In this document: one piece after another, positions 1 through 25,844 of the stretch
How positions within the stretch are numbered: the stretch's first letter is position 1
Layout of the letters: the number at the start of each line of letters is the position of its first letter
IMG/VR virus record: IMGVR_UViG_3300045110_000185
Span: 1 to 32,082 of that record
Reading direction: 5' to 3' (one strand)
DNA length: 32,082 nt
Source: a virus
Notes under the pieces: generated by a model
What the model was told of the DNA's origin: nothing
The model's database searches: none
Seen by the model: only the letters and a program-made list of their open reading frames with translations
Translations under genes and position numbers: made by a program

Positions 1-463
1 TATCGGTGGCGAGTCCGAAAATTCCAGCGTCATCGTGGCCTTTACGATACTGGATGCAATTTCTGGACTGAACCATGTGGCCAAACAGTGGTCTAAGACG
101 GTGGAAATGGGAGATTTCCTTCCAGACCCTTCTACGGAGTCCGTCAAGGGTGGTTGAAGTGACGATGACAACGGTGTCTCTTGGGCTTGCATAGTATTTG
201 GAAAGGGCGTAAATGCCCGCCGAGGTGGTTTTCCAGCTTGCGGCAGGCCCGGTGACCGTGCACCATGGATTTTCAGCGAACGTGCGCTGCATCCACTCAG
301 TCCAGTCGTTCCAGATGTAGGTGTTGGGAACGTGCTTGTTCCAAACCAGGTCAATCGAGTTCTTGAGGTGTTGGTATTTGCCAAGTCCAAGAGGCGGATC
401 ATTGGCAAAACTGTAAAGCTCAATCGCCGCCTGGTCGGTTGTCCTGAAGTTCAGCCCGTACAT
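1..463 (-). CDS. Phage terminase large subunit, N-terminal part (cut by window edge)
   Basis: ATPase motor that drives DNA into the capsid; only the first 154 residues lie in the window. I translated the minus strand by hand from the ATG at 461-463. An in-frame TAG directly precedes this ATG, so translation cannot start earlier, and the gene overlaps the upstream one by 44 bases. Residues 71-80 read TGPAASWKTT, a Walker A-like loop with Trp where Gly is usual. It is followed by a helix and by VVIVTSTTLDGLRRRVWKEI (about 98-117), a segment typical of terminase ATPase domains. The place directly after a small HTH protein fits the usual TerS-TerL order. Walker B and the nuclease domain lie outside the window. 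Recognition rests on motif layout and context. Confidence 0.8.
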   Translation of the reverse strand, partial: MYGLNFRTTDQAAIELYSFANDPPLGLGKYQHLKNSIDLVWNKHVPNTYIWNDWTEWMQRTFAENPWCTVTGPAASWKTTSAGIYALSKYYASPRDTVVIVTSTTLDGLRRRVWKEISHFHRLRPLFGHMVQSRNCIQYRKGHDDAGIFGLATD

Positions 464-941
464 CTATGGTTTCCACGGTAGTCGCCTTTGCCGCCTCGAT
501 CTCAGCATGGTTAATGGTAGGCTTTTCAGTGCCTATGAGGAGCGCACCTTCAATAAGACCGCCATCCTCCTCCTGGGGAAAGATAATCTGATGAACCCCA
601 GCCACATCGCGCACTTTGCGGGCCACTTCCAAAGGATCACCATGCTCCGCAGCCTTTCTGGCCGCCTTGTCAACATACCGAGCCAGGTTTAAGGTGGAAT
701 CCGACCTGTGCCTCTCAAGAGCCTCAGCCATGACGTCCCCAGCGTCCTTCCCGGTAACAGCATCCTCATGAATGCTCTTAGGCTGCTTAAAAGCATGCTT
801 CTTCCAGGAATACTTGAAAGCATAAGACGCCATCGTCCCATAAGGTATCCCAGCCAGACGAGCTGCTTCCCTGGGGCCGTAAACAGTCACAAGTGCTTTC
901 AAAGCATCAAGTTCCTTGCCTACCCGTGCCTTTCCAGCCAT
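420..941 (-). CDS. Candidate terminase small subunit (HTH protein)
   Basis: A 173-residue acidic protein. Residues about 22-48 (REAARLAGIPYGTMASYAFKYSWKK) look like a helix-turn-helix, as in small terminases that bind the packaging site. A helical middle part (about 70-115) and a disordered C-terminal tail follow. It lies directly upstream of the terminase large subunit on the same strand and overlaps it by 44 bases, so the two are probably translationally coupled. Only about 5 bases separate the predicted transcription start of the promoter at 953-979 from its ATG, so the mRNA is almost leaderless. Context and HTH support the call; an ordinary DNA-binding regulator is the alternative. Confidence 0.65.
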   Translation of the reverse strand: MAGKARVGKELDALKALVTVYGPREAARLAGIPYGTMASYAFKYSWKKHAFKQPKSIHEDAVTGKDAGDVMAEALERHRSDSTLNLARYVDKAARKAAEHGDPLEVARKVRDVAGVHQIIFPQEEDGGLIEGALLIGTEKPTINHAEIEAAKATTVETIDVRAELQDNRPGGD

Positions 942-1263: not shown

Positions 1264-1297
1264 AGAAAGCCCCGTGCTCAGTTACGAACACGGGGCT
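1264..1297 (-). terminator. Rho-independent-type terminator of the MoxR/vWA operon
   Basis: A perfect 9-bp stem AGCCCCGTG / CACGGGGCT (1268-1276, 1289-1297) with a 12-base loop lies 27 bases past the stop of the vWA gene. On the minus strand the stem is followed only by TTCT, so the T-tract is short. Location supports the minus-strand reading. Confidence 0.65.
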
Positions 1298-1323: not shown

Positions 1324-2685
1324 TTATTCCGGGAGATTGCCCTTTCCGCCGAATGCTTCAAAGGCAGCATCGAGCGAACGATGGACGGTCAAGTCGCCGC
1401 GATTGGTCGCCCGTTCGACAATCGCATGCGCCACTATCTCAGACCCCAGCACGCCACCGCAAAATTCCAAATCCGAGACAAGCGTCCACGGTTTAGAATG
1501 CGACATCAGCCACTTGACCGCCGGGAGATCAACGGCATTCCCGCCGAGCAGCGTGTCACAGGGCAACTCACCTGCGAACCGCTTCCCGTTGCTGGCATAA
1601 ATCGCCAGCACCCCGCGCCCGTTGGAATGCCCGGAATAATACCCAACCGTCGCAGTCGGCACCAAAGCGCAAAGCGCGCTGAGGTTTGCACGACTCGCAC
1701 CCATCGAACCGGACGCATCTATCACCACGCAGCCGCCCGGTTTATTGCGAATGCGTTGACGGAATAAACCGTTGCTGTCGCCATTGATTACCGCAGCCAA
1801 GAAGCGAAGCGGGTTAATGATTGAGCCGTTGGGCGCGAACCGCCGATTGATTGACTTTTGCTTGTCGCAGGAAACGGTCTTTGGTCGCAAGTCGCGCAAT
1901 TCCATTTTCCCATCGAGCGCATCCCCAGCCTCGACCGGGGGCAGAATGTCGCCGGGCTTGCGTCCGGTCGGTTCTTCGTCTTGCCATTCCTGCTCCGGAC
2001 TTTCCAATAGCGCAACGAGCACCGAAATTGCCCTCGCGCGCCTTGACCGGACTTTGGCCAGATTGACCACGGTTGCAATCGCCCGGCTTAGCTTGTCACC
2101 CATCAGATGACGAACGTGGCGACGACCCCGGCGCGCCGTAAACTCGCTTTTAATATCAGCCCCGGTGCCGTAATGTTTGAGCATCGCCACCGTGCGAACC
2201 GCGTTGAGCAATTGCCCGTTCCGCAATTCGGGCGAATCTTTCGCCTTCCCTGTTCGGACTGCACGAACGTTTTTCTTCAACGTCCTCACTCCGTCCATCG
2301 CGGTTGCAAGGTGCGCCCGTTGATAAATCCGCATCATGCCGGGCGTTGCCGTGCTCGGAAGCATGGTGCTTTCAATGTTCACGTCATCCACGATTTGAGC
2401 GGCAATAGCCTCGTTTTCTGTCAGAGGCTTTTTTCGGCGCGGCGTGTGCCGGGTTGCGTGCCGGGTTTCATGTCCACGGATGGTGACGCCTTTGGCATTG
2501 TCGCCAATCGGCGCGCCTAGCTTGACTACATCTCGACGGTTCTTCTCGTCGTACTGCGTGAACCCGCCAATCTGCCCGGTTTGCTCGGGACGATCAGCTA
2601 GGACGATCTTTGCGCCTTTCAGCTTGCCATCAGGGACGGAGGCGCGGATTGCATCGCGCACGGTTTTGCGGTTGGGTTTTCTCAT
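1324..2685 (-). CDS. Metallopeptidase-like plus vWA (MIDAS) protein, MoxR partner
   Basis: A 453-residue protein with two recognisable parts. Residues 72-76 are HETRH, an HExxH zinc-peptidase signature, with a further His80 and then D100, D101 and N103. This spacing resembles the putative metallopeptidase domain often fused to vWA domains (DUF2201 type). A basic linker (about 110-250) follows. The C-terminal vWA domain begins with VVIDASGSMG, a complete MIDAS DxSxS (D323, S325, S327). The gene lies 5 bases downstream of a MoxR AAA+ ATPase. This is the classical MoxR/vWA pairing, known from RavA-ViaA and CobS-CobT-like systems, where the ATPase remodels a target bound by the metal-ion-dependent vWA domain. 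The target in this phage is unknown. Domain calls are firm from motifs; the biological role is inference. Confidence 0.8.
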   Translation of the reverse strand: MRKPNRKTVRDAIRASVPDGKLKGAKIVLADRPEQTGQIGGFTQYDEKNRRDVVKLGAPIGDNAKGVTIRGHETRHATRHTPRRKKPLTENEAIAAQIVDDVNIESTMLPSTATPGMMRIYQRAHLATAMDGVRTLKKNVRAVRTGKAKDSPELRNGQLLNAVRTVAMLKHYGTGADIKSEFTARRGRRHVRHLMGDKLSRAIATVVNLAKVRSRRARAISVLVALLESPEQEWQDEEPTGRKPGDILPPVEAGDALDGKMELRDLRPKTVSCDKQKSINRRFAPNGSIINPLRFLAAVINGDSNGLFRQRIRNKPGGCVVIDASGSMGASRANLSALCALVPTATVGYYSGHSNGRGVLAIYASNGKRFAGELPCDTLLGGNAVDLPAVKWLMSHSKPWTLVSDLEFCGGVLGSEIVAHAIVERATNRGDLTVHRSLDAAFEAFGGKGNLPE

Positions 2686-2690
2686 ATTGC

Positions 2691-3431
2691 TTAAGCCTTT
2701 AGACCGTTCCGCGCGGCGTCGATTAACGCCATTAGAATTGTCTTGCCTTGCCCCTCGCCGAATACCAATTCAGCCGCCAATTGATCGTCCACACCCTCAG
2801 CCCGGAGGTGCTCGAAACTAATCATCCGGCGCGGAGTGATCGACGGTGCCCAATCGTCCGTGTTCGGCTCATTCGCCATTTTGTTCAGAATGAAAGCCGC
2901 GCACTCAGGCGACAAGCGGCGCAGAATGCCGGAGTGGGGAGTGTCGCAACGCAGCACAATGTCAAAGCGATCAAGAACAGCCTCGGCCAATTGGTCGGGG
3001 CTTCCGTTCATTGTCGCAATCACCCGGTAGCCGGGCGCAGGTTCGACCGTCTCACCGTTGTCCAGATTGAGACGGCAGATGGCCGCATCATCGAGCACGG
3101 ACTGAAGCGGGGCATCTAATTCGCCGCCTGCCTTGTGAATCTCATCCAGCACCAACGGGCAACCTTTGAGAGCAGCACGGGTGGCGCAAGCATTCGACCA
3201 GTGGGTTGAGCCATCCCGGAGCAGGAATTTCCCGAATAGCGCATCTGCGAATTGAGACTGGTTAAGAGTCACCCGCTCGTATTCCGGAGAAAAGGAACAC
3301 GCAGCGGTTGTTTTTCCCGTGCCTGGCTTGCCGTGGAGCAGCCATCGGCGCGGAGGATTAACTAGAGCGTTGAGCATGGCCAGAATGCCCGGCCAGTCGG
3401 TAATTTTTAACGTTGTTTGATTTGGGTTCAT
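2691..3431 (-). CDS. MoxR-type AAA+ ATPase
   Basis: A 246-residue AAA+ ATPase. Visible motifs: Walker A GKPGTGKT (34-41), Walker B PLVLDEIHKA (D96, E97), sensor-1 ATMNGS (N142) and the arginine-finger motif LDRFD (R155). A lid region follows (PSITPRRM, about 196-203). The motif set and small size fit the MoxR/CobS branch, which works with a vWA partner; that partner is the next gene downstream. The start at 3431 has no Shine-Dalgarno sequence but a leader made of repeated AACCAAACCC-like units (3432-3462). Likely role: ATP-driven remodelling together with the vWA protein; the substrate is unknown. Confidence 0.85.
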   Translation of the reverse strand: MNPNQTTLKITDWPGILAMLNALVNPPRRWLLHGKPGTGKTTAACSFSPEYERVTLNQSQFADALFGKFLLRDGSTHWSNACATRAALKGCPLVLDEIHKAGGELDAPLQSVLDDAAICRLNLDNGETVEPAPGYRVIATMNGSPDQLAEAVLDRFDIVLRCDTPHSGILRRLSPECAAFILNKMANEPNTDDWAPSITPRRMISFEHLRAEGVDDQLAAELVFGEGQGKTILMALIDAARNGLKA

Positions 3432-3462
3432 ATTAGGTTTGGTTTGGGTTTGGTTGGGTTTG

Positions 3463-3726
3463 TTAGTCTAAGTCAGATGGCATCCATCCCGGCGCGGCAG
3501 CGTCGAGTAGCGTGTAGCCTGTAACAGTCTGAGCAATCACGTATCGGTGACCGCCGATGTTAATTGAATCGCCATCATAATAAACGTTCTTGCTTGGCAA
3601 TTGCTTAGCGTAATGCTCAAGCGGCAAATCCAACGGAAGGTCGGACGCGTAGCAATGTTTGAAGCCGTTGTATTGCTGCATTTCTGGCATGCAACTGCCC
3701 TCAGTATTGTTCGGTGTATTTAACAT
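3463..3726 (-). CDS. Small protein of unknown function, first gene of the MoxR/vWA operon
   Basis: About 87 residues, ending YTLLDAAAPGWMPSDLD. No family recognised; the C-terminal half (NVYYDGDSINIGGHRYVIAQTV) looks like a short beta-rich unit. Two starts are credible. The ATG at 3726 lies 6 bases after the -10 box of the promoter, so it would be translated from a leaderless mRNA. The ATG at 3690 has a good GAGGG Shine-Dalgarno (3698-3702) 7 bases upstream and would give 75 residues. A farther upstream ATG overlaps the -10 box and is unlikely. As the lead gene of the operon it may be a regulator or adaptor of the ATPase pair, but that is inference. Confidence 0.6.
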   Translation of the reverse strand: MLNTPNNTEGSCMPEMQQYNGFKHCYASDLPLDLPLEHYAKQLPSKNVYYDGDSINIGGHRYVIAQTVTGYTLLDAAAPGWMPSDLD

Positions 3727-3732
3727 TGATTG

Positions 3733-3760
3733 ACTATACAAAGCTGCTTGGAAAGGTCAA
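3733..3760 (-). promoter_or_regulatory. Promoter with AAGCnGCTT operator for the MoxR/vWA operon
   Basis: On the minus strand TTGACC (3755-3760) and TATAGT (3733-3738) are 16 bases apart, and the palindrome AAGCAGCTT (3741-3749) fills the spacer. An ATG follows 6 bases after the -10 box, the same spacing as in the promoter at 4299-4326. A degenerate copy of the palindrome (GAGCAGCTT on the plus strand) lies at 3790-3798. Confidence 0.7.
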
Positions 3761-12590: not shown

Positions 12591-12896
12591 ATGGCTGAGA
12601 CGCAGGGCGCATTCTTCGGCGACTGTCCTCACCCGCGCGCGGAAGTGGTCATGGAAAAGCGCGGGACTCACTATGCCCGCCGCGTCTGCTCTGATTGCCG
12701 CAAGTTCCTGGGCTGGATACCGCACCCGGACAACGTTCGCAAGGCTCTGGAAAACGCCATTATCCTGACCTCACTTTCAAAGCTGGACAATCTCCCCGCA
12801 TGGGAGAGGCAGTTCGTCCGGTCACTCACTACCGCGAAGAAAATCAGCCCCAAGCAGCAGGAAAAGCTGCTTCTCATTCGGGACATGTATTTATGA
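12591..12896 (+). CDS. Zinc-ribbon phage replication-associated protein
   Basis: 101 residues. Cys/His ligands CPHPRAEVV...HYARRVCSDCRKFLGWIP (about 12-44) form a zinc ribbon. The C-terminal part (NLPAWERQFVRSL...KISPKQQEKLLLI) is the WExxFxxS...LSPKQxxxL pattern of phage zinc-ribbon proteins found next to primase-helicases. ATG at 12591 is preferred over an upstream TTG because GGAGGG lies 8 bases before it. It overlaps the primase-helicase by 4 bases (ATGA), so the two are probably co-translated and may work together at the fork. Confidence 0.7.
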   Translation: MAETQGAFFGDCPHPRAEVVMEKRGTHYARRVCSDCRKFLGWIPHPDNVRKALENAIILTSLSKLDNLPAWERQFVRSLTTAKKISPKQQEKLLLIRDMYL

Positions 12897-14833
12897 CAGT
12901 CTCAATGGTGAAACGCTGTCAGCAGACAGACACCCATCCAATCACGTTTGAGGAAATCTGGTCGGTCACCCGGTCAGGCGAGCACGGCCTCAAGGAGAAA
13001 ATCACCCGCATCCGGAACAAGTATGAGGCCGAGCGCGACATTACCGGGGACACGGTCAAGGCCAAGGAATCCATAGCAGAGCTGAAATCGGAGCTGCCGG
13101 GGTTTATGCCTTCAGGGAGTTTCTCAACCCGCTCAAACGCCGCCCTGGTGGAGTACTCCGGCCTTCTGTGCGCCGATATGGACAGCCTGGGGGACAAGCT
13201 GCACTCGATCCGGGAAACGCTCAAATACCTGCCCTACGTGCGCGCCATTGCCCTTTCCCCGTCCGGGGACGGACTCAAAGTGTTCTTCAACGTGGTCAAC
13301 GACCCTGCCCGGCATGAGGATTCGTTCCGCGCCATAAGGGACAACGTGCGCGACCTTGGCGTCGAAATAGACGAGAAATGCAAAGACCTTGCCCGGATAT
13401 GCTTTTTCACATACGACCCTGACCTCTGGTTGAACAACGCCCTTGGCGCGATCCTTCCACCTGCCGATCCGTTGCCCCGGGGTAAGACAACCACGGTCAT
13501 AACCCCGGACATGACGGCGAGAGAGTTAATCGCAATCAAGCTGTTGGGTGAATGCACCTACAGTCCTGAGAAGGGCGGATACTTTGTTAAACATTGCCCC
13601 GGGGAATCTTTTCACACCGCCAAGGACGGGGCGAAGCACACCATCCTTTATTTGAACGGCGCGCCCACGCTGGACTGCAAGCACACATCTTGTTCACATG
13701 TTGTTCAAGCCTTCAATGATGTGCTCCGGTCGAAGATCGGGAAGGTGGAAAGCGAACATTCCACCTTCCACTATCCCCATAAGGATGCTGGAAGCTGGAA
13801 CATTTTAGATAAACCCAACGGAGCAACGACTTTAACCCCGGAAAAGCAGTTTGTCAGTTTTTGCGACCCAAACTTCCTAGAATCATACGATCCACCGGAA
13901 GGAATGCAGCTCGTTGGCAACCACCATATTTGCAAAGATGGGACATTCATTTTCGTCCTCGGCGGGCCAAATGGGGTGGGCAAATCACTTGCCCTGACAT
14001 CACTGGCCGTGGCTGGCGCGAAAGGGAAAGGTAAATGGTTTGGGCTAGATGTTCACAGACAGTTCAAAACCATGATAATCCAGCAGGAGAACGGGTTGTG
14101 GCGTCTGTCACTCAATTTCAAAGAGCTGAATTGCAAGGAATTACAGGATTACGTTCGTATCAGCGAACCACCACCATATGGAATGCTGTTCCGAAACGAT
14201 GATTTCAGGAAACAGCTCGGTGACTGCATTACGGAATTTTCTCCGGACATAGTCGCTCTCGATCCATGGAACGCCGCCGCGCGAGATCAGGAGCAAAGGA
14301 CTTACCTGGAAACCTTTGAGCAGATCAAGTCGGTCTTACCTGTCAATACCGCACTCTGCATCGTGGCGCATACCCGGAAGCCACAGAAGGACGAACGCTC
14401 CACCGGGCGCGGCCTGATGAACATCCTGGCTGGAAGCCATGTCCTGACCAGCGTCCCAAGATGCGTTTTTGTGCTGCAATACGCCTCGGACGACACCGAA
14501 GACGACCAGGTAGTGTTCACATGCTGCAAGAACAACGATGGCGACCTGGGGAAGCGTAGCGCATGGAAACGCAAGGTCGGACTATTTGAACCAGTTCCAT
14601 CATTCGACTGGGTGACGTTCGACTCAACAAGCAAGGATAAGCGCGTCGTGATTACCGAAGAAATGGTAAAAGAGGTTTTTGAGGGCGGTGAATTACTCCG
14701 GGTGATGGCGCGGGATAAATTGCTGGAAATTAGCGGAGCCGAGAAGTCAGCTTGCTACAATGCACTGTCCCCAAAAGGCAGATTTTCCAGCAATCTGTTA
14801 TTCAGTGGAAATTTAGTAAATTGGATTCGTTGA
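12893..14833 (+). CDS. Primase-helicase: VirE/BT4734-like N-terminus plus RecA-like helicase
   Basis: 646 residues from the ATG that overlaps the preceding stop. The N-terminal domain (about 1-200) contains LPGFMPSGSF, GLLCADMDSLGDKL, YVRAIALSPSGDGLKVFFNV and a conserved late segment ICFFTYDPDLW; this fits the VirE N-terminal/BT4734-like family, related to primase-polymerases. A middle region has possible metal ligands (HCPGESFH, CKHTSCSH, about 235-270). The C-terminal ATPase has Walker A GGPNGVGKS (357-365), Walker B DIVALDPWNA (D457), and the RepA/DnaB-like region VNTALCIVAHTRKP. Expected role: priming and unwinding at the phage fork. It is the main replication gene in the window; no DNA polymerase is visible. 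Confidence 0.8.
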   Translation: MTVSMVKRCQQTDTHPITFEEIWSVTRSGEHGLKEKITRIRNKYEAERDITGDTVKAKESIAELKSELPGFMPSGSFSTRSNAALVEYSGLLCADMDSLGDKLHSIRETLKYLPYVRAIALSPSGDGLKVFFNVVNDPARHEDSFRAIRDNVRDLGVEIDEKCKDLARICFFTYDPDLWLNNALGAILPPADPLPRGKTTTVITPDMTARELIAIKLLGECTYSPEKGGYFVKHCPGESFHTAKDGAKHTILYLNGAPTLDCKHTSCSHVVQAFNDVLRSKIGKVESEHSTFHYPHKDAGSWNILDKPNGATTLTPEKQFVSFCDPNFLESYDPPEGMQLVGNHHICKDGTFIFVLGGPNGVGKSLALTSLAVAGAKGKGKWFGLDVHRQFKTMIIQQENGLWRLSLNFKELNCKELQDYVRISEPPPYGMLFRNDDFRKQLGDCITEFSPDIVALDPWNAAARDQEQRTYLETFEQIKSVLPVNTALCIVAHTRKPQKDERSTGRGLMNILAGSHVLTSVPRCVFVLQYASDDTEDDQVVFTCCKNNDGDLGKRSAWKRKVGLFEPVPSFDWVTFDSTSKDKRVVITEEMVKEVFEGGELLRVMARDKLLEISGAEKSACYNALSPKGRFSSNLLFSGNLVNWIR

Positions 14834-15357: not shown

Positions 15358-15595
15358 TGAGGACGCCCTGATGGCCGATGGATTTGAGGACGCCATCATG
15401 GGCATAGTGGAGCGATGTGGGATGTCAGCCCTGGTCGTCTACGACACCCGGAAATGTATCGACATCCTCATAAACCGGGACAAGATGAGCGAACCCGAAG
15501 CGTGGGAACACTTTAACTTCAATGTGGCAGGAGCTTACATGGGCGTGAACACCCCGTTATTCTTTACACCTTATGCTAGTGATATACCCCTTTAG
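15314..15595 (+). CDS. Conserved phage protein (FEDAIMGIVERCG...FNVAGAYMGVNTP type)
   Basis: 93 residues. The motifs ADGFEDAIMGIVERCGM, LVVYDTRKCIDIL, MSEPEAWEHFNFNVAGAYMG and NTPLFF, in this order, mark a small protein found in very many phages, usually annotated hypothetical. All-helical, no established function. Overlaps both neighbours (44 bases upstream, 23 downstream), typical of compressed phage coding. Confidence 0.75.
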   Translation: MTDTLKIREWVAQFNEDALMADGFEDAIMGIVERCGMSALVVYDTRKCIDILINRDKMSEPEAWEHFNFNVAGAYMGVNTPLFFTPYASDIPL

Positions 15596-17372
15596 CGTTG
15601 TCGATGAACAGCTTGCGCTCAAAAACGCGCAATGGATTGCAGAGCTGGGAGAATATAAATCCCATGACGTTTTTATTTTGAGCGACCGACGCTGCAACCA
15701 GCAGATCATGGAGGATGTGGTAAAGACCCTGGGGAAAGTCTTCCGCCTCGCCAAGCACCGTCTGACGTCGTCTGACGTCGATGGCTGGCCGGAGGGAGCC
15801 AACCAGATGTTCAGCCTGGCCGCCACCCTCATCCAGCACACCAGGGAATGGCCCTGCTTCTTCTGGCTTGAGCCGGACGCCATACCGATAAGCCCGGGCT
15901 GGCTGGACGCCCTGGAGGCTGAGTATAAGCGCGGCGGCAAGCCCTTCATGGGCGAGCGCGTTGACCTTGGGGCCAAGCGACCCGATGTGCCCATCCATAT
16001 GTCCGGGGTAGGAATCTACCAGAACCCGATCTACCTGCTGGCCGGTGAATGCTACCGCGCACACGAAGTTGCCTGGGACATTGCCGCCAAAGACCAGATC
16101 ATCCCCAACGCACACTGGACGAAGCTGATTCAGCACTACTGGAAGCACGGCACGTTCACCCACCTGAATGAAATCCGGGAAGAAACCGTGGTGTTCCATT
16201 CCTCCAAGGACGGTTCACTGATTGACGTCCTGCGAAAAAACTTGAGCGGCAGTAGCAATACCGAATCGGGAGCAAGCAGCTTGGATGCAAGCCCCCGGCC
16301 ACAGGAAATCCTCGCACTCCAAGAGCAGCTACATCCTGTTAGTGGGAGTGGTGACCCACCCGCTCAGATTCATAAAGTACGTGACGGAACCTGGGTTCTG
16401 GAGAATGATGCCATCAGTGGCCGGGTAATGGAGGCCGGACGCCTTGATTTTGATCCCCTCATTCCTTACGTCCTCAAACACATCAGACCCGGTGATACCG
16501 TTGTTGATGTTGGTGCTTTTATTGGGGATCATACTGTTGCGTATTCTCACGCGGTAGGCAAAGCCGGGAAGGTGTTTGCCTACGAACCCAACCCCGATGC
16601 CTTCAAGTGCCTGGTTCACAACACCAACGGCATGTCGAACGTCTTCGGGTTCTGCCATGCGCTCGGAGCGCATGACGGTGTGGCTGGTTTGATAGGAGAC
16701 AACCCCGATAACTTCGCCTCACACTTCGTAGACCATAGCAACCGAAACGGAGGCCCGATCATCCAGGTGCAGCGAATGGATACTCAGATGTGTCTCTTTG
16801 GTCAGCTCGATCTCATTAAGATGGACGTTGAGGGATATGAATTGAACGCTCTTAAAGGCATGGAGCAGCTCATCGAAAAATTTCACCCGAAGATGGTGAT
16901 TGAGATTAACGAGATCGCCCTTAAAAGGCAGAACGCCACTCCCGAAGATGTCATCAGTTGGGTGGTGCGCCATGGATACGAAGTGAGCATCCTCCATCGC
17001 CATGGAGAGAACGTTCCTTTCTATGACATCCTCGCTTTGCCAGCGGCAAAACCACCGGAGACTATCAGCAGCGCACCTGCCCACGTTACCGAATCAGAGT
17101 GCGTTGCTACTCCGGTGGCTGCCCCGGTGGCTCCCCGCAACGTCTCCGTCCCTGATGCCGTTCAGCTCCTGGTGAATGAGTTGCAGGAGATCGCCGAAGT
17201 TTCCCCGGGCAACAAAGCCATAGTCACATCAAGACTGGTGTATGCCGGGCTGCGTCCAGTCGCACCAAAGAAACCCAAGATCATATATGCGACTGATCCA
17301 TTCGCTCCGGAGGCCAAGGGGAGTAAACGAGTCAGAAAGCGTAAGCCTCCCACTGTGGAACACCCGGCCTGA
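15573..17372 (+). CDS. Glycosyltransferase-like / FkbM methyltransferase fusion
   Basis: 599 residues. The N-terminal part (about 1-215) resembles GT-A-type glycosyltransferase-like phage proteins: it opens with a beta strand MLVIYPFSV, has ALKNAQWIAELGEYKSHDVFIL, the acidic site FFWLEPDAIPISPGWLDALE, and PIHMSGVGIYQNPIY. After a Ser-rich linker, residues about 270-490 form an FkbM-family SAM methyltransferase: VVDVGAFIGDHTVAYS (about 309-324, SAM loop), AYEPNPDAF, and LIKMDVEGYE (about 413-422). The tail (490-599) is Pro/Ala-rich and basic. It may transfer and methylate sugars on virion protein, DNA or host surface; the acceptor is not evident. The upstream gene overlaps by 23 bases. Last gene of the rightward unit. 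Confidence 0.75.
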   Translation: MLVIYPFSVVDEQLALKNAQWIAELGEYKSHDVFILSDRRCNQQIMEDVVKTLGKVFRLAKHRLTSSDVDGWPEGANQMFSLAATLIQHTREWPCFFWLEPDAIPISPGWLDALEAEYKRGGKPFMGERVDLGAKRPDVPIHMSGVGIYQNPIYLLAGECYRAHEVAWDIAAKDQIIPNAHWTKLIQHYWKHGTFTHLNEIREETVVFHSSKDGSLIDVLRKNLSGSSNTESGASSLDASPRPQEILALQEQLHPVSGSGDPPAQIHKVRDGTWVLENDAISGRVMEAGRLDFDPLIPYVLKHIRPGDTVVDVGAFIGDHTVAYSHAVGKAGKVFAYEPNPDAFKCLVHNTNGMSNVFGFCHALGAHDGVAGLIGDNPDNFASHFVDHSNRNGGPIIQVQRMDTQMCLFGQLDLIKMDVEGYELNALKGMEQLIEKFHPKMVIEINEIALKRQNATPEDVISWVVRHGYEVSILHRHGENVPFYDILALPAAKPPETISSAPAHVTESECVATPVAAPVAPRNVSVPDAVQLLVNELQEIAEVSPGNKAIVTSRLVYAGLRPVAPKKPKIIYATDPFAPEAKGSKRVRKRKPPTVEHPA

Positions 17373-19619: not shown

Positions 19620-22600
19620 TCAGGGGCAGATTACCATTTCGGCAATGTATTTGAACAAGTCGTCACCATTTTTTATCTCCTTGACCAGCTCCGGGGATTC
19701 CTTTGCCAGCTGGGCGTCACGTTTCATCAGCTCTTTGTTGCGCGCTTCCACGGTCTTATGGATTTGCTTCAGGAGTTGTTCCGCATCCTTTCGTTGCGCC
19801 GTGGTAAAGTCATGCCCGTTCTGCCGGATCATCTGCTGCCGCAGATCGGTCATGCTGCGCGGGTTGTATTCTTCAGGCGGCATGCCCGGGTGCTCGGCGT
19901 CAACAGCATCCCTGATTGGCTTCACGGTCTTGGTGTCCCAGTTGGAGTAATCAGCAAAGGCTTTGTCGGCTGCGTCCTTGTTCGCCTGGGTGGGATGGGT
20001 CTTGGCCAGGTTCTCTGCGTGCTCTGAAACCTCCCGCAAATCCTCGGCGTGCGCTTTTACCACGGTGTATTTCTGCTCGCTGGGGATTGCGCGAGAAGCA
20101 GCCACGGCCTCTGGGTCAACGCCATGCCTGATGGCTTCCCGGCCAGCGTCGATGATGTCGTTATGCGACATGCCACCGGAGGAATCAACGGACTCTGTTA
20201 TCCCTTCGTCATGGAATTTCTGGAGCGAGTTGGAGATGACCTGGGACATCTGCTGGTCGGACAGGTCGCGCAACCCCGGGCCAGCAGCCTCATTGGCGGT
20301 AGGCGGCCTTGGTTCATAATCGCCCGTCTCTACCGGTCGCGGTGCGAACTCGCGCTGCTCTGGGGTTTCCGGAGGCTGCGCTGCCGCTTCCTTGATCCCT
20401 GCCAGGGTGTCCTTGATGCCACTGACTCCAGCGGTGTCACCCCTGACCGCTTTAACTCCCTGGTCAAACTCCTTGTCGGACAACGCTGAGATTTCGTTCT
20501 TTGTCCAACCCGATTCCTTGACCAGATTTTCGTAATCCGTCCTGTGTCTTTCCTGGTCGTATTTTGGTGACCCGCGATGGTATTGGAACTGCCTCTCCAG
20601 TTCTGCCGACACCTGTTGCTCGCTCCATTTGTTCCTTCGGATTGCACCCTGGTCAAAGACAGCAGCTTCATAAATCTTTCCGTCTGGCAGCTTTGAAATA
20701 ACACCGTCGTATCCCTGCTTCTGATACTGACGCATCCTGGCTTGATTGATGTAGCTGCTTTCCGAGGCTCCCATTTCATGGGCACCTGAACGCACTTGCT
20801 CCTCGGTTATCTGGATGACCTTGGGATTCTTGAGGTGCAAGCTGTGCTCGCTGGGTTCCCTGAAGATGCCGTTCTGCTCCTCGTAGCCCCTGGCGAACTC
20901 TTTGTCCGGGGTAAAATAAACAGGAGGTTTAAGGTCACCAGTGCCCAGCCCGCGCTGTCCCTGCCCGTGATAAAATGTGATCGGCTCCCCTGAGGGATGA
21001 GAAAGAGGCTCGGCTAAGCCACCTCGTCCACCGACCCCTTCAGAAACGGGGGCGGCGGCAGACCTTCCTTGAGGCTCGGGTGGGGTAGCAGCGACTTCGG
21101 GGTGGGCGGGTTCAGCTCCGGACTTCTCTCCGGATTTCGCAGCCTCGAGGATTGTTCCGAGCTGCCCAGATTTTGGATTTGTTTCTCCAGCTCGTCCAGG
21201 GCCGGTTTGTCCGGGGTCTTTATCGCTGACAGCTTCCTGTGCATGCTCTGAAGGAACACCTTTGTCAGTTCCTTTACCTCCTTTGGATTCTGGCTCAAGT
21301 TGCGAGCCAGTTTTGAAACCTTCGGAACGGTTTGCTGTACTTTTAGCGAAGTACTTATCTCTGATTTCATGTAATGTGTCCCAATGTTGACTTAACACCT
21401 GCTCCATCGTCTGTAAAAACTTTTGTTGCTCCGGAAAATCAGCCATCCTTCCGATGTTGTTGATTTCTTCCCTGGTAAATCCACCCCCTTCGTTACGTTC
21501 CGGAACATGGGTAATCTCATGGAGGAATATATGCAGCATTTCAAACGCTGCCCTTCTGGGACTACTCATCCCACCGTCAGAAATTCCGGCAGGATTAGCC
21601 CAGAGCGACCTGAATGGGTTGGTTATATTGTATCCGGCATACTTCGCATCGTATGAAATACCACCAAGCCATGCTTTGCCAGGTGTGGTATTGGTGAGTT
21701 GAGCATACTCAGGCCGTGCTGTTGGGTCTGCCCCGAATTTGGCACCGAATGCGCGCATGAACTGGATAAGCATGCTGCCAAGTTTGGCGTGCAGTTCGGG
21801 AGCACCCTTTATCTTCTCGAAATCAACGTTGGTATTGTTGTGATATAGAGGATTCTTCGGGTCTAGGTGACTGGTATCCAGCTTTGTCTTTTCAAAATCA
21901 ATTTCTCTTTCGGCACTGAACGATGGTTTGTTAAACTGCTCATGTGATTGAACCTCTTTCTTGCCACCGGCATAAGTGGTAACCACCTTGTCACGCTTAA
22001 CATCTACACTTTGAATCTTTGGCAGCGTAACCCTTCCTGCTGCTCCCTGGGTGGCATCGCCCTGATAAAGCTGGTCAGCGGTAAAGGTTTTACCCATGTC
22101 CTCAATCGGGATATGGGTCATTACCTGTAGTTCCTTGAACTGTTCCTGGGACTTCTTCAGGTCTTGCTCCAGCCCCTGCCTTTTCAGGTAGGAATACATG
22201 GCAGTGGCGTCAGCCTTTACCGAGCCGCGCCATCCTTCCCTCTGGTTATCGAAAGGATACTGAGGGTCTTTGGTGTCAACATGCGGCCTGACATCAATCA
22301 CCATGTTGTGGGGTATCCGCTGTTCCGCCTTGTCGAAGATGTGCTGCCAGGGAACTTCAAACTGATGCAATCCAGCCGACATTACCCTGTACACGGGAGG
22401 ATATGTGCCCTCTGTATACGTGTATTTCTTTAGCGGGCTGGGATCGACGTAGACATTGGCATGGCCCCAGTCGAAATTGAATACGTTATCCTTCACCCAG
22501 CCCGTGCTGTGAATCCCCATGTGGTTTGGAACCCCGTTCACTTTTACTTCCACATCACCAAAAAGAGGGTTCTTCAGGAACTCGGGATCGGTATCGAAAT

Positions 22601-25600
22601 GAACGGGAATGGTTTCACCCTTGCTGTTGATGTAGTCTTTGGGGATTTCCACGGTGACCGTGCTTCCATTAGGCTCATTGGTGTAGGTCTTAACCAATGG
22701 AATCTGGTTGGCCTTTACCTGCTCCCGGCTTACGTCCATCACGGTTTTCAGGCCATCCTTGACTGTTACCAGCTTGATTCGTTTTGAACCCTTGATGAAT
22801 GCCAGCTTCGCCACGCCCAACCCACCGGATGTATTCTGGTGGTCACCGCTTTTCTTTGTGCCACCGGTTCGCAGGAAGGCAGTCACAATAGTTTCAGGAG
22901 ACATGCCCACTCCATCATCTCTGACGGTGATGGTGCGAGTATCGTAATCGTAATCAATGCTTATCTGGCCGGGCTTTGCCTTGCTTACACCACCTTCGCG
23001 CACCGCATCAAAACCGTTCTGAAGCAGCTCCTTGATGATGACGTTTACGATTGAATTACTGTAAGCCTTCTCGCCTATCAAACGATCTACCTGCTCCGCG
23101 TCCTGGCTGGTTCCTACAATGTCCGTTCCGGGTTCAGACTTGGGAAGCGAGAGGTCTTCCTCCTTCTTTGCGGCAATGGCAATGTCCTTGTCCAGCTGGT
23201 CAGGACTTTTCTTGCGCCCGGGCAGCCAGGACTTTTGCGGCGACCATTTTTCATCATCGGATTGTTTAACAAAATCTCCTTCAATGACGCCTTCCTGCTT
23301 GTCTTTGAGCCGATACAGTTCGGACAATTCATCCTTTCCTATATCCCCAATGCCCATTATTTTTTTACTGAGCTTGGTCTGCAACTGAACCATTCGGCTA
23401 AATTCATCCTGGGTAAGACCGCCCTTTGCTTCACCTCCTCCTGGAGCTGCTCGCATTGGCTCCTGGTAATCCCCGAACGATTGGCGTTCCAGCTCATGCG
23501 CGCGCCCTTCGTCCCCGTAAACTTTATTTCCGCTCCGCAGCCGCTCATCAATCAGGTTGATAGCGTCATCCGGGGTTTCGACATCGAAACCTCTGTTCTT
23601 CAGGAGCTGGGTCAGGCTGTCCATGTTGCCCTGCGCCTTGGCCTTGAACACTTCTCCGAAATAGAGCTTCTCCCCGCTACCGCTGGCCAGGGGCCGGTGC
23701 TTCTCCTGGCCGTATTTGTTCTTCGGCGCGAAGTGCTCCTTGAGGTTCCTAAGTTCCCCGGAGTAATTAGGATCATTCAGGGGAACGCCATGCTCGGACA
23801 CGACATCAAGCAGCTCATCTCCGCCCTTGGCCTGGTGGCCCTGGGCTTCCTCCAGTAAGGACGCCTCATACTCCCGCTGCATCTTGAGCAGCTCCTTGGC
23901 TGTTTCGTCTGACCCCTTCTCGGCTGTGGCTTTGGCAACCTGCGCCAGAAACGTCTTGTCCAGGGCTGCCTTACGCTTCTGGGCTGCTTCCTCGGTGCTG
24001 AACGGAATGGTCAGGGCGTCAGGCTTACGACTGTCTACCACCTTGTATACGCCGTGATCCTCCTTAATAGAGAATGGGGTTTCCGGGGTTGTCGGTTCCT
24101 TTACCGGATCACGCACATACCTGGTTCCGAACTGGTCTTTGCCATCCACCCTGAATCCCAGCTTTTCATAAAAGCCAGGAAGATCGGTTCTCTGTTCCCC
24201 GACATGCAGGGTGAGTGGTATCCCGGACTTGTCAGCGTCGGCAAACACCTGCTCCATCAGGGCTGTTCCTTCGCCCTGCCTGCGCGCCTCTGGCTTAACG
24301 AACAAGTCCCTGATGTATCCGTTCTTGGACACTTTGACTGAGGCATTCTCGGTGCTGTATTCGGACTTCAGCCCCGAGTCGTGCTCTATCACCGGTTCAG
24401 CTGGCTGCCGTGCAGCTTCCAGCTCGGCCATCTTGGCCCTGGCTTCTTCCTCAGTGGCTTTGACCGAGACAATCTTGTTCGCTTCCCGGTCGATGACTCC
24501 GAACCCCAGGGCATCTTCCTTGATGTAGTACGGACTTTCCGCTACCGGCTCTGTCGCCGCTTCGCCAGCGCGACCGCGATTGCCTGCTGGTTCGCTACCG
24601 ACCGGCCCTTTGTCTGTAACGTTTTCTGGTACGTTTTGCCCAGATGAAACTCCCGGATGTTGCTCGACACTACTTTCTGCGACTGGCCCTTCTTGAGTGG
24701 CATTTGTGATTCCTCCTTCTGTTCCTGGTTTTGGTATTGGTGCTTCTGGTAAAGGTGCTGCTGGCGCGCGCGCAATTTCGGACGCGGGATGAATCGGTGG
24801 ATTAGTCTCAAAAGGAAGTAACCCCGGGATTACTGGTGTGGGCGGAGGAACCATCCCTGGAGCGACTGGAGGACTGGGTGGTGCAGGCCCGGCAGGAGCT
24901 GCTGGCCCAGCCGCAGGAGGCGCGCCACCGCTGGCCAATGTCTTGGCCGCCGCAGCTGCCGCCGGGTTCGGCTTATGAAACCATGGCTCACTGAAAATTA
25001 ACCCCGTGGCTGCGGCCACGGCCAGCTGAGTTGGATCAAACTTACCGGACTCAATCTGGTCTTTGACGTTGAAAGCCGAGTTCAAACCTCCAGCCATGGA
25101 CACATTGATGACGTTCCCTATTTCATCCACGGCTTGAGGAGCCATCCCCTTGCCGCCTGTCTTGGTGAACGCGACCAGGGCTGCCCGGCCTTCCGCGCTG
25201 GCCAGGGTCTTACCTGCCCTGACAACATTCATTGGGTTTGGCTTCCCGAAGGAAAGCCCGCCACCCACGATTGATGCGTAAGGATGTGCCTCCGTCTGGG
25301 CCTGCTCTGTCTTGGAGGAAAATGCTCCCCCGGGGGAAATCACATCAGCCGCTGCGGTTTGAAGTTTTGACACTCCCCATGCGGCAGCCGCACCAGCAAT
25401 CAATCCACCAAAGACTCCACCGATTGCTTCACTGATGCCGGTTTCTCCAGCTACTGGCACAGCTGCTCCAACCAATGCACCACGGGCTGCTCCTACTGCT
25501 GCTGCCCCTGCAATGCTACCCCAGGGATAAGCTGCCAGCATTGCCCTTCCTGGCAGGAAACCTCTGACCGCAGCACCGCCAATGGCTGCAATCGCTCCTG

Positions 25601-25844
25601 GCTTTCCCTGCTGGGAAAGAGTAGTGGATTGATCTTGAACCGCCTTGTCAGTGTAAGGAGTCCCGGAATGAGAAGGAGAAGCGGTAGCGGTAGGCGTAGG
25701 GCTGTGGCTCTTGTTGTAAAAATCAAGGATGTCCTGATCCGGGTCAGGGGTCATCGTGGCCGCAGGCGACCCACCAGGAGACGGTGATCCCTTACGCTGA
25801 TTATAAAAATCAAGAATGTCCTGATCTGGATCGGGATCAGCCAT
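19620..25844 (-). CDS. Giant polyvalent protein (GNAT, GHKL ATPase, HEITH peptidase, ART-like)
   Basis: 2074 residues, the largest gene in the window. In order: the 12-mer PDPDQDILDFYN twice (4-15, 33-44) in a Pro/Ser linker; a Gly/Ala-rich hydrophobic part (about 84-160); a Pro-rich region (about 290-440); two related short units beginning IKED (about 440-480, 590-635) flanking a GNAT-like domain with RRQGEGTAL (about 520) and YEKLGF (about 560). Then a GHKL ATPase: N-box E939-LLQ-N943, DDGVGM (976-981), GGLG (1007-1010). Later H1442-EIT-H1446, a zinc-peptidase signature, and an ART-like region from YHGQG (H1626) through VYFTPDKEFARGY to IYEAAVFDQGAIRR (about 1740). The tail is charged and helical. 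Multidomain effectors of this build are known as phage polyvalent proteins, thought to enter the host with the DNA. Domain calls vary: GHKL and GNAT firm, ART and peptidase moderate. Confidence 0.75.
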   Translation of the reverse strand: MADPDPDQDILDFYNQRKGSPSPGGSPAATMTPDPDQDILDFYNKSHSPTPTATASPSHSGTPYTDKAVQDQSTTLSQQGKPGAIAAIGGAAVRGFLPGRAMLAAYPWGSIAGAAAVGAARGALVGAAVPVAGETGISEAIGGVFGGLIAGAAAAWGVSKLQTAAADVISPGGAFSSKTEQAQTEAHPYASIVGGGLSFGKPNPMNVVRAGKTLASAEGRAALVAFTKTGGKGMAPQAVDEIGNVINVSMAGGLNSAFNVKDQIESGKFDPTQLAVAAATGLIFSEPWFHKPNPAAAAAAKTLASGGAPPAAGPAAPAGPAPPSPPVAPGMVPPPTPVIPGLLPFETNPPIHPASEIARAPAAPLPEAPIPKPGTEGGITNATQEGPVAESSVEQHPGVSSGQNVPENVTDKGPVGSEPAGNRGRAGEAATEPVAESPYYIKEDALGFGVIDREANKIVSVKATEEEARAKMAELEAARQPAEPVIEHDSGLKSEYSTENASVKVSKNGYIRDLFVKPEARRQGEGTALMEQVFADADKSGIPLTLHVGEQRTDLPGFYEKLGFRVDGKDQFGTRYVRDPVKEPTTPETPFSIKEDHGVYKVVDSRKPDALTIPFSTEEAAQKRKAALDKTFLAQVAKATAEKGSDETAKELLKMQREYEASLLEEAQGHQAKGGDELLDVVSEHGVPLNDPNYSGELRNLKEHFAPKNKYGQEKHRPLASGSGEKLYFGEVFKAKAQGNMDSLTQLLKNRGFDVETPDDAINLIDERLRSGNKVYGDEGRAHELERQSFGDYQEPMRAAPGGGEAKGGLTQDEFSRMVQLQTKLSKKIMGIGDIGKDELSELYRLKDKQEGVIEGDFVKQSDDEKWSPQKSWLPGRKKSPDQLDKDIAIAAKKEEDLSLPKSEPGTDIVGTSQDAEQVDRLIGEKAYSNSIVNVIIKELLQNGFDAVREGGVSKAKPGQISIDYDYDTRTITVRDDGVGMSPETIVTAFLRTGGTKKSGDHQNTSGGLGVAKLAFIKGSKRIKLVTVKDGLKTVMDVSREQVKANQIPLVKTYTNEPNGSTVTVEIPKDYINSKGETIPVHFDTDPEFLKNPLFGDVEVKVNGVPNHMGIHSTGWVKDNVFNFDWGHANVYVDPSPLKKYTYTEGTYPPVYRVMSAGLHQFEVPWQHIFDKAEQRIPHNMVIDVRPHVDTKDPQYPFDNQREGWRGSVKADATAMYSYLKRQGLEQDLKKSQEQFKELQVMTHIPIEDMGKTFTADQLYQGDATQGAAGRVTLPKIQSVDVKRDKVVTTYAGGKKEVQSHEQFNKPSFSAEREIDFEKTKLDTSHLDPKNPLYHNNTNVDFEKIKGAPELHAKLGSMLIQFMRAFGAKFGADPTARPEYAQLTNTTPGKAWLGGISYDAKYAGYNITNPFRSLWANPAGISDGGMSSPRRAAFEMLHIFLHEITHVPERNEGGGFTREEINNIGRMADFPEQQKFLQTMEQVLSQHWDTLHEIRDKYFAKSTANRSEGFKTGSQLEPESKGGKGTDKGVPSEHAQEAVSDKDPGQTGPGRAGETNPKSGQLGTILEAAKSGEKSGAEPAHPEVAATPPEPQGRSAAAPVSEGVGGRGGLAEPLSHPSGEPITFYHGQGQRGLGTGDLKPPVYFTPDKEFARGYEEQNGIFREPSEHSLHLKNPKVIQITEEQVRSGAHEMGASESSYINQARMRQYQKQGYDGVISKLPDGKIYEAAVFDQGAIRRNKWSEQQVSAELERQFQYHRGSPKYDQERHRTDYENLVKESGWTKNEISALSDKEFDQGVKAVRGDTAGVSGIKDTLAGIKEAAAQPPETPEQREFAPRPVETGDYEPRPPTANEAAGPGLRDLSDQQMSQVISNSLQKFHDEGITESVDSSGGMSHNDIIDAGREAIRHGVDPEAVAASRAIPSEQKYTVVKAHAEDLREVSEHAENLAKTHPTQANKDAADKAFADYSNWDTKTVKPIRDAVDAEHPGMPPEEYNPRSMTDLRQQMIRQNGHDFTTAQRKDAEQLLKQIHKTVEARNKELMKRDAQLAKESPELVKEIKNGDDLFKYIAEMVICP

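Follow-up and report, generated by a model that had tools for sequence, protein, structure and literature searches.

MoxR-type AAA+ ATPases that are paired with a protein carrying a von Willebrand factor A (vWA) domain are known from several systems. In NorQ/NorD, such a pair inserts iron into nitric oxide reductase, and the published model is one in which an extension of the vWA domain lies in the ring pore and the metal ion-dependent adhesion site (MIDAS) is proposed to bind the target (PMC13036017, PMC9976466). Group 2.2 jumbo phages carry a MoxR and metallopeptidase-vWA pair for which a role in virion assembly with proteolysis has been proposed (Iyer et al. 2021, PMC7824862), and genes termed "cobST" occur in many tailed viruses (Liu et al. 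2021, PMC8651126); neither paper, in the text accessible, describes an experimental test of the pair. An AAA ATPase gene also lies near a vWA-MIDAS gene in the archaeal viruses HVTV-1 and Hardycor1 and in ATV (p618/p892) (PMC7911831), and MoxR-vWA conflict systems have been treated separately (PMC7159879). Here we analyze a locus in a 32,082-base virus record (IMG/VR IMGVR_UViG_3300045110_000185; hereafter the window), in which a MoxR-type ATPase gene is followed on the minus strand by the gene of a vWA protein with an N-terminal HExxH motif. On balance, we favor the reading that the two proteins together make up a remodelling machine of the MoxR/vWA kind, one driven by ATP and equipped in this case with a zincin-like N-terminal part. 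The kind of machine is known from the jumbo-phage pair and phage "CobST", while the Pfam-invisible form seen here is new. An earlier note on this DNA had suggested that it may be a distinct system; the kind had already been described (PMC7824862, PMC8651126), and the part of that suggestion that stands is a chaperone-like MoxR/vWA pair, located beside the terminase genes, whose vWA protein has a conserved zinc-peptidase signature.

The ATPase and its vWA partner

The ATPase is readily recognized, as it matches Pfam AAA_5 at 3.8e-15, above the cut-off, PHROG 16448 at 4e-25, and PHROG 249, the phage CobS family that has P-SSM3 CobS as a member, at 1.2e-20. Its AAA+ motifs are GKPGTGKT (Walker A), LVLDEI (Walker B), ATMN (sensor 1), and LDRFD (arginine finger), in agreement with the MoxR-type assignment made earlier, and it is matched by 477 phage records. 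The bpMoxR model of the MoxR-vWA ternary conflict systems was considered and set aside, the ATPase scoring 14.7 bits against a cut-off of 27.

The partner matches no Pfam or NCBIfam family, the Pfam vWA model included. Its 11 aligned relatives return scattered matches to families, each by a single member and the best at 0.006, and the partner itself matches one PHROG of unknown function at 7e-8. As a consequence, ordinary annotation detects the motor and misses its partner. The HETRH motif that the earlier note had pointed out occupies residues 72–76, and DASGS residues 323–327. An HExxH is expected by chance 0.012 times in a protein of this composition, and the motif is present in 12/12 rows of the close lineage and 53/59 rows of a wide alignment (A8); in the latter, the Glu is present wherever both His are, and Gln is found in five of the six losses. 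The same note had called the MIDAS complete, which needs qualifying because Asn replaces the Thr of the classical motif: the site consists of DxSxS, N383, and D405, and while DxSxS and the distal Asp are found in 59/59 rows, so is Asn at the Thr position, a count partly biased by the inclusion of the GGN motif among the search patterns. The anatomy of the two proteins and the pairing of their genes are secure.

Conservation in close and wider viral relatives

A search of IMG/VR with the ATPase returned 13 further contigs, and in 13/13 of these a HETRH-vWA gene lies downstream on the same strand, either directly or after one to three small open reading frames (ORFs). The window and 11 relatives make up a 12-row alignment, in which HETRHATRH, VDDVN, DASGSM, and GGN are invariant and the relatives are 55–70% identical to the window protein; one contig found later (L150) brings the number of relatives to 14. 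Among the genes beside more distant ATPase matches were those of compact partners carrying HEAMH..VEDCRV and HELAH..CEDSRI, and a hidden Markov model (HMM) of the close relatives, run against a set of 15 sequences, matched three distant partners at 4e-23 to 1e-18 over the vWA part, one of which (L061) has no HExxH.

The wider family was collected using an alignment of the vWA domain only, a query that cannot favor HExxH. The viral contigs matched number at least 172, and the 80 with the best matches were retained; 10 of these are 5'-cut in the vWA gene, leaving 70 that were counted. In 68 of the 70, a MoxR ATPase ORF is found close to the vWA gene and in the same orientation, mostly directly upstream (the exceptions are L191 and L226). 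Sorted by hand, the N-termini comprise 39 with HExxH, 8 that are degenerate but alignable, 22 with another N-terminal region (among them L201, whose HExxH stands at a position unrelated to the site), and one fragment (L226), while an automatic tally of 41/76 takes in L201 and some 5'-cut rows. The 22 (L158, L162, L166, L167, L176, and others) keep the vWA domain and ATPase and carry a different N-terminal region lacking the HExxH. Conservation of HExxH in homologs, on which the earlier note had made its proposal depend, therefore holds in the close lineage (12/12 rows) and in 39/70 of the wider family. A tblastn search of the phage collection with the vWA protein and with the L062, L163-type, and L176-type proteins gave no match for any, and a Gordonia-type profile gave none against the viral contigs.

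The HExxH motif is lost together with the acidic pair that follows it. Across 75 rows with an alignable N-terminus, a count that omits rows with X in this region, L201, L230, L237, and rows with other N-termini, both acids are present in 67/67 rows with HExxH, and one acid is replaced in 8/8 rows without it. The losses read KQLGY with ES, VELAH and TELAH with EN, HQLGR (twice) with ER, KQIAH with ES, and LQLGH (twice) with SD. That the two elements are kept or lost together is expected of a real metal site, and the partner likely has one.

Predicted structure

An AlphaFold model built from 59 diverse rows has a mean predicted local distance difference test (pLDDT) score of 83.4 and a predicted template modelling (pTM) score of 0.78; it supersedes an earlier model from 12 close rows, with a pLDDT of 58.9, for which fold searches were uninformative. 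The chain is predicted to begin with a helix and three strands, followed by the HExxH helix (residues 64–79), the acidic-pair helix (residues 90–105), a helical part extending to residue 226, and the vWA domain (residues 319–444), an N-terminal order of elements that is zincin-like. When the vWA part is compared with the PDB, the best match is NorD bound to NorQ, with a Z of 8.4 over 148 residues at 4.3 Å and the next at 7.8, values of Z near 8 being at the edge of the chance range; many other vWA chains match the model at Z 5.7–7. Foldseek ranks a NorQD chain first in the PDB, but with an E of 0.08. Among viral models, the best structural match is A0A1B0XTW8 (7e-10), and annotated vWFA proteins come next, at 6e-8 (a podovirus), 1.9e-4 (Gordonia phage GMA3), and 1.6e-3 (the haloarchaeal virus HHTV-2). 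A family profile run against PDB sequences returns at the top the archaeal mini-metallopeptidase MJ1213, which we take to be proabylysin; its HExxH is in register with that of the partner's N-terminal part, the match is not significant (E 0.29), and MJ1213 differs in being a stand-alone chain of 110 residues.

Comparison with known systems

The pair resembles the DUF2201_N/DUF2201 pair of jumbo phages in that a MoxR gene adjoins a vWA protein with an N-terminal HExxH domain. DUF2201_N was found in four of six phage records examined, with an ATPase-like ORF directly upstream in three of the four, as judged by eye. However, the MIDAS of the window partner has Asn where the jumbo-phage protein has the Thr of GGGT, and the contigs of the present lineage, at about 54 kb, are not those of jumbo phages. 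The two partners align in a profile-profile comparison with a probability of 35%, over the vWA part, and membership in DUF2201 was rejected since the window protein matches neither DUF2201 model; PF13203, which detects four of the six phage records, gives none here at E ≤ 10. The metallopeptidase-vWA proteins of two jumbo-phage loci (L038 and L040) match PHROG 1314, "HNH endonuclease", a name that looks like a misnomer.

With phage CobS/CobT the locus shares a related ATPase (PHROG 249) and the placement of a CobS-like ATPase gene next to a vWA partner. The P-SSM3 partner, which is matched by 463 phage records, also has an HExxH (HEVGH), an EDxRI (EDARI), and a MIDAS (DWSGSM), so its label as a "peptidase" is not baseless. 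A count of HExxH in 79/79 cyanophage-type partners (from 80 loci, L127 having no long ORF) is biased, as the motif was a search pattern, and is not used as evidence. In contrast to the 453-residue window protein, the cyanophage partner (PHROG 459) has 745 residues; the two have no direct sequence match, and the profile-profile probability with the P-SSM3 type is 30%. The Ochrobactrum phage CobT gave no match against plasmids, and an A3Wally partner guessed by position was dropped, neither motif being present. NorQ/NorD shares with the window pair a MoxR partner and a MIDAS, and provides the best structural match of the vWA domain. Unlike the window partner, NorD is larger, and the accessible text makes no mention of HExxH, zinc, or peptidase in PMC13036017, or of HExxH or peptidase in PMC9976466. 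Likewise, HExxH is not mentioned for the archaeal virus AAA and vWA pairs in the accessible part of PMC7911831. No paper on the compact family was found by title or abstract opening, in a literature coverage that most subscription journals fall outside of.

Locus organization and neighboring genes

The three ORFs at 1324–2685, 2691–3431, and 3463–3741 were verified on the minus strand, where the order is small ORF, ATPase, vWA protein, hairpin, TerS-like gene, and TerL (Table 1). The same phage is represented by a longer copy of 53,810 bases, which agrees with the window at every one of the 4,300 bases compared (100% identity) and supplies the full 554-residue TerL. Against annotated terminases this protein gives weak matches to 9 records, the best at 2e-7 and 23.7% identity. 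Among the 14 relatives, TerS is next to the pair in 13 and TerL follows in 12, the exceptions being contigs that end first (L010 and L016). The earlier placement of the pair beside packaging genes is thus supported as regards TerL; the TerS gene is named putatively, from its position and the helix-turn-helix look of its product. The note had further given the pair its own early-type promoter and a terminator. Promoter-like sites number 2 in the scanned region against a mean of 2.4 in shuffled sequence, which is not above chance, although the position of the match is good. The 12-bp hairpin is present, within a 76-base stretch that folds at -34 kcal/mol, but its tail is merely TTTCTGCT.

Table 1 Features of the locus, in window coordinates
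Feature	Position	Strand	Remarks
vWA partner, 453 residues	1324..2685	-	N-terminal zincin-like domain, helical middle, C-terminal vWA domain
HETRH, residues 72–76	2458..2472	-	Predicted zinc ligands H72 and H76; predicted catalytic E73
D100 and D101 (VDDVNIE)	2383..2388	-	Predicted third ligand and its neighbor; aligns with E[ED]xR[IV] of relatives
MIDAS DASGS, residues 323–327	1705..1719	-	D323, S325, S327 in 59/59 rows
N383, MIDAS Thr position (GGNxVDxPA)	1537..1539	-	59/59 rows (partly biased, see text)
D405, final MIDAS residue	1471..1473	-	59/59 rows
MoxR-type AAA+ ATPase, 246 residues	2691..3431	-	Walker A residues 34–41, Walker B residues 93–98
Small ORF	3463..3690 or 3463..3741	-	Open frame; 75 residues (ATG 3690) or 92 residues (TTG 3741)
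Sigma-70-like promoter match, TTGACC-16-TATAGT	3733..3760	-	From motif scan
Possible terminator, 12-bp hairpin	1268..1297	-	3' of vWA gene, before TerS; weak T tract
TerS-like gene	420..941	-	Downstream neighbor, outside the machine; adjoins pair in 13/14 relatives
TerL, start	2..463	-	Neighbor gene; full 554-residue copy on longer contig

The small ORF upstream of the ATPase, for which ATG 3690 with GAGGG upstream is the likeliest start, had been read as the lead member of a trio. It has no family match at E ≤ 0.1 in Pfam and PHROG searches, and 0/14 of the related contigs carry a relative of it, so the trio is not a module and the small protein is no part of the machine. A different, Cys-rich small protein (CDFCGFVWEHEDSC..) is encoded close to the pair in 8/14 relatives (L007, L011, L012, L014, L015, L018, L019, and L150). 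It was considered as a third partner and rejected, as its place varies and a search gave no match in the window's own contig stretch (L006).

Elsewhere in the window, a 2074-residue ORF (19620–25844) has by eye acetyltransferase-like and GHKL-type ATPase-like stretches together with HEITH, and may be a polyvalent phage protein. A 712-residue ORF (12695–14833) is primase/helicase-like, with a BT4734-like domain at its N-terminus (1.4e-23) and AAA_25 matched weakly, and a 599-residue ORF (15573–17372) has by eye an FkbM-type methyltransferase-like segment.

Bacterial copies

The pair is also present in actinobacterial chromosomes. An earlier scan of genome contigs with the close relatives as queries gave no match; a bacterial genome scan (alignment A6) returned 25 loci. 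In 23/25 the ATPase and vWA genes are close together and share a strand, and 23/25 have HExxH, the two without it being L230, which is 5'-cut, and L237. Four of these loci (L236, L241, L244, and L247), mostly from Acidimicrobiaceae, have surroundings that look chromosomal rather than phage, with transporter genes upstream and NrdR, a PIG-L deacetylase, and a DinB-type polymerase downstream (by Pfam for L236 and by eye for the other three). Others, such as L229, resemble phage contigs inside metagenome bins. The bacterial pair is sporadic: with the L236 genome counted, 4 of the 148 genomes sampled from its order and 8 of the 61 from its family have the pair. A link to ribonucleotide reductase, raised by the NrdR neighbors, was discarded, as 6/6 phage-lineage contigs have no large-chain gene and the cellular pair is sporadic.

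Proposed mechanism and alternatives

By analogy with NorQD, the ATPase would assemble into a ring onto which the vWA protein docks, the MIDAS would hold the target by an acidic residue, and the vWA domain would be shifted relative to the N-terminal part as ATP is hydrolyzed. In the N-terminal part, H72, H76, and an acidic ligand among D100 and D101 would bind zinc, with E73 acting as the base. Because the zincin-like domain has an apparently intact zinc site, the likeliest output would be the opening of a target complex coupled to cleavage or trimming; peptidase activity of the partner is plausible. As to the target, we tentatively prefer a phage morphogenesis or packaging protein over any single host complex.

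Several observations weigh against this proposal or parts of it. The acidic residue is Asp in the window protein and Glu in most relatives, and the N-terminal domain has no significant match among solved structures. In 30 of the 70 wider viral relatives (the 8 degenerate and the 22 with another N-terminal region) the zinc site is missing yet the vWA domain and ATPase are kept, so peptidase activity would not be essential to the machine as such. Additionally, the tree needs four losses, with one independent pair on strongly supported branches, which leaves a sign test powerless; as the independent losses are so few, the correlation of HExxH with the acidic pair falls short of statistical proof. 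The hairpin stands between the pair and TerS, and the adjacency to terminase is synteny of one lineage, with none in four wider-family loci inspected except an opposite-strand candidate, seen by eye, in L153.

That the metal site can disappear while the pair persists would also fit a pure chaperone, in which the N-terminal domain recognizes the target and the metal site is structural or a metallochaperone, with no peptidase activity. We consider this possible, if rather unlikely, given that the HExxH Glu, which structural zinc does not need, accompanies both His throughout A8, with Gln in five of the six losses. The gene order of the close lineage suggests instead an aid to packaging or virion assembly dedicated to the adjoining terminase. 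A role in virion assembly, with proteolysis, was proposed for the jumbo-phage pair by Iyer et al., who also cite an archaeal-virus MoxR-vWA tail-assembly pair (PMC7824862), and an S78 prohead protease was not found in 6/6 lineage contigs searched. However, six of eight large packaging-side proteins, TerL included, have no PHROG match, so the missing protease says little, and as the adjacency is not seen outside the close lineage we regard this role as doubtful. Counter-defense or host takeover, by taking apart a host complex at an early stage of infection, appears less probable again: the promoter-like site and hairpin point to a transcription unit of its own for the pair, and the pair sits among small accessory ORFs in the wider-family loci inspected, but the promoter sites are not above chance.

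The least probable alternative in our estimate is a cobaltochelatase-like function, in which the pair would take the parts of CobS and CobT and commandeer the CobN of the host so that more cobalamin is made; the HExxH would then be incidental. Such a function was proposed for viral cobST (PMC8651126), and the ATPase matches the phage CobS family (PHROG 249). Against it, the vWA protein has no real Pfam or NCBIfam match and none to PHROG 459, the zinc-site motif is strictly kept in the close lineage and its parts co-vary in the wider family, and a ribonucleotide reductase large chain, which could need vitamin B12, was not found in 6/6 lineage contigs searched.

Implications

The remodelling machine that we favor may extend to a split ATP-dependent zinc protease, in which a MoxR ring would feed or twist the substrate on behalf of a vWA-zincin subunit separate from it, and which would be used by uncultivated phages of this family, by hundreds of cyanophages (as CobS and a "peptidase"), and by some actinobacterial chromosomes. 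Taken as one joint claim, this is speculative and on present evidence unlikely. Phage MoxR/CobS genes have been reported as auxiliary B12 genes (e.g., PMC11288001, PMC11705849); if the split protease were real, phage "CobST" would mostly have been misread as vitamin B12 genes. The partner belongs to a large, Pfam-invisible, and mostly unannotated family in which the parts of a zinc-peptidase-like site are kept or lost together, and it is this site that makes the question of whether the pair is a chelatase, a chaperone, or a protease testable.

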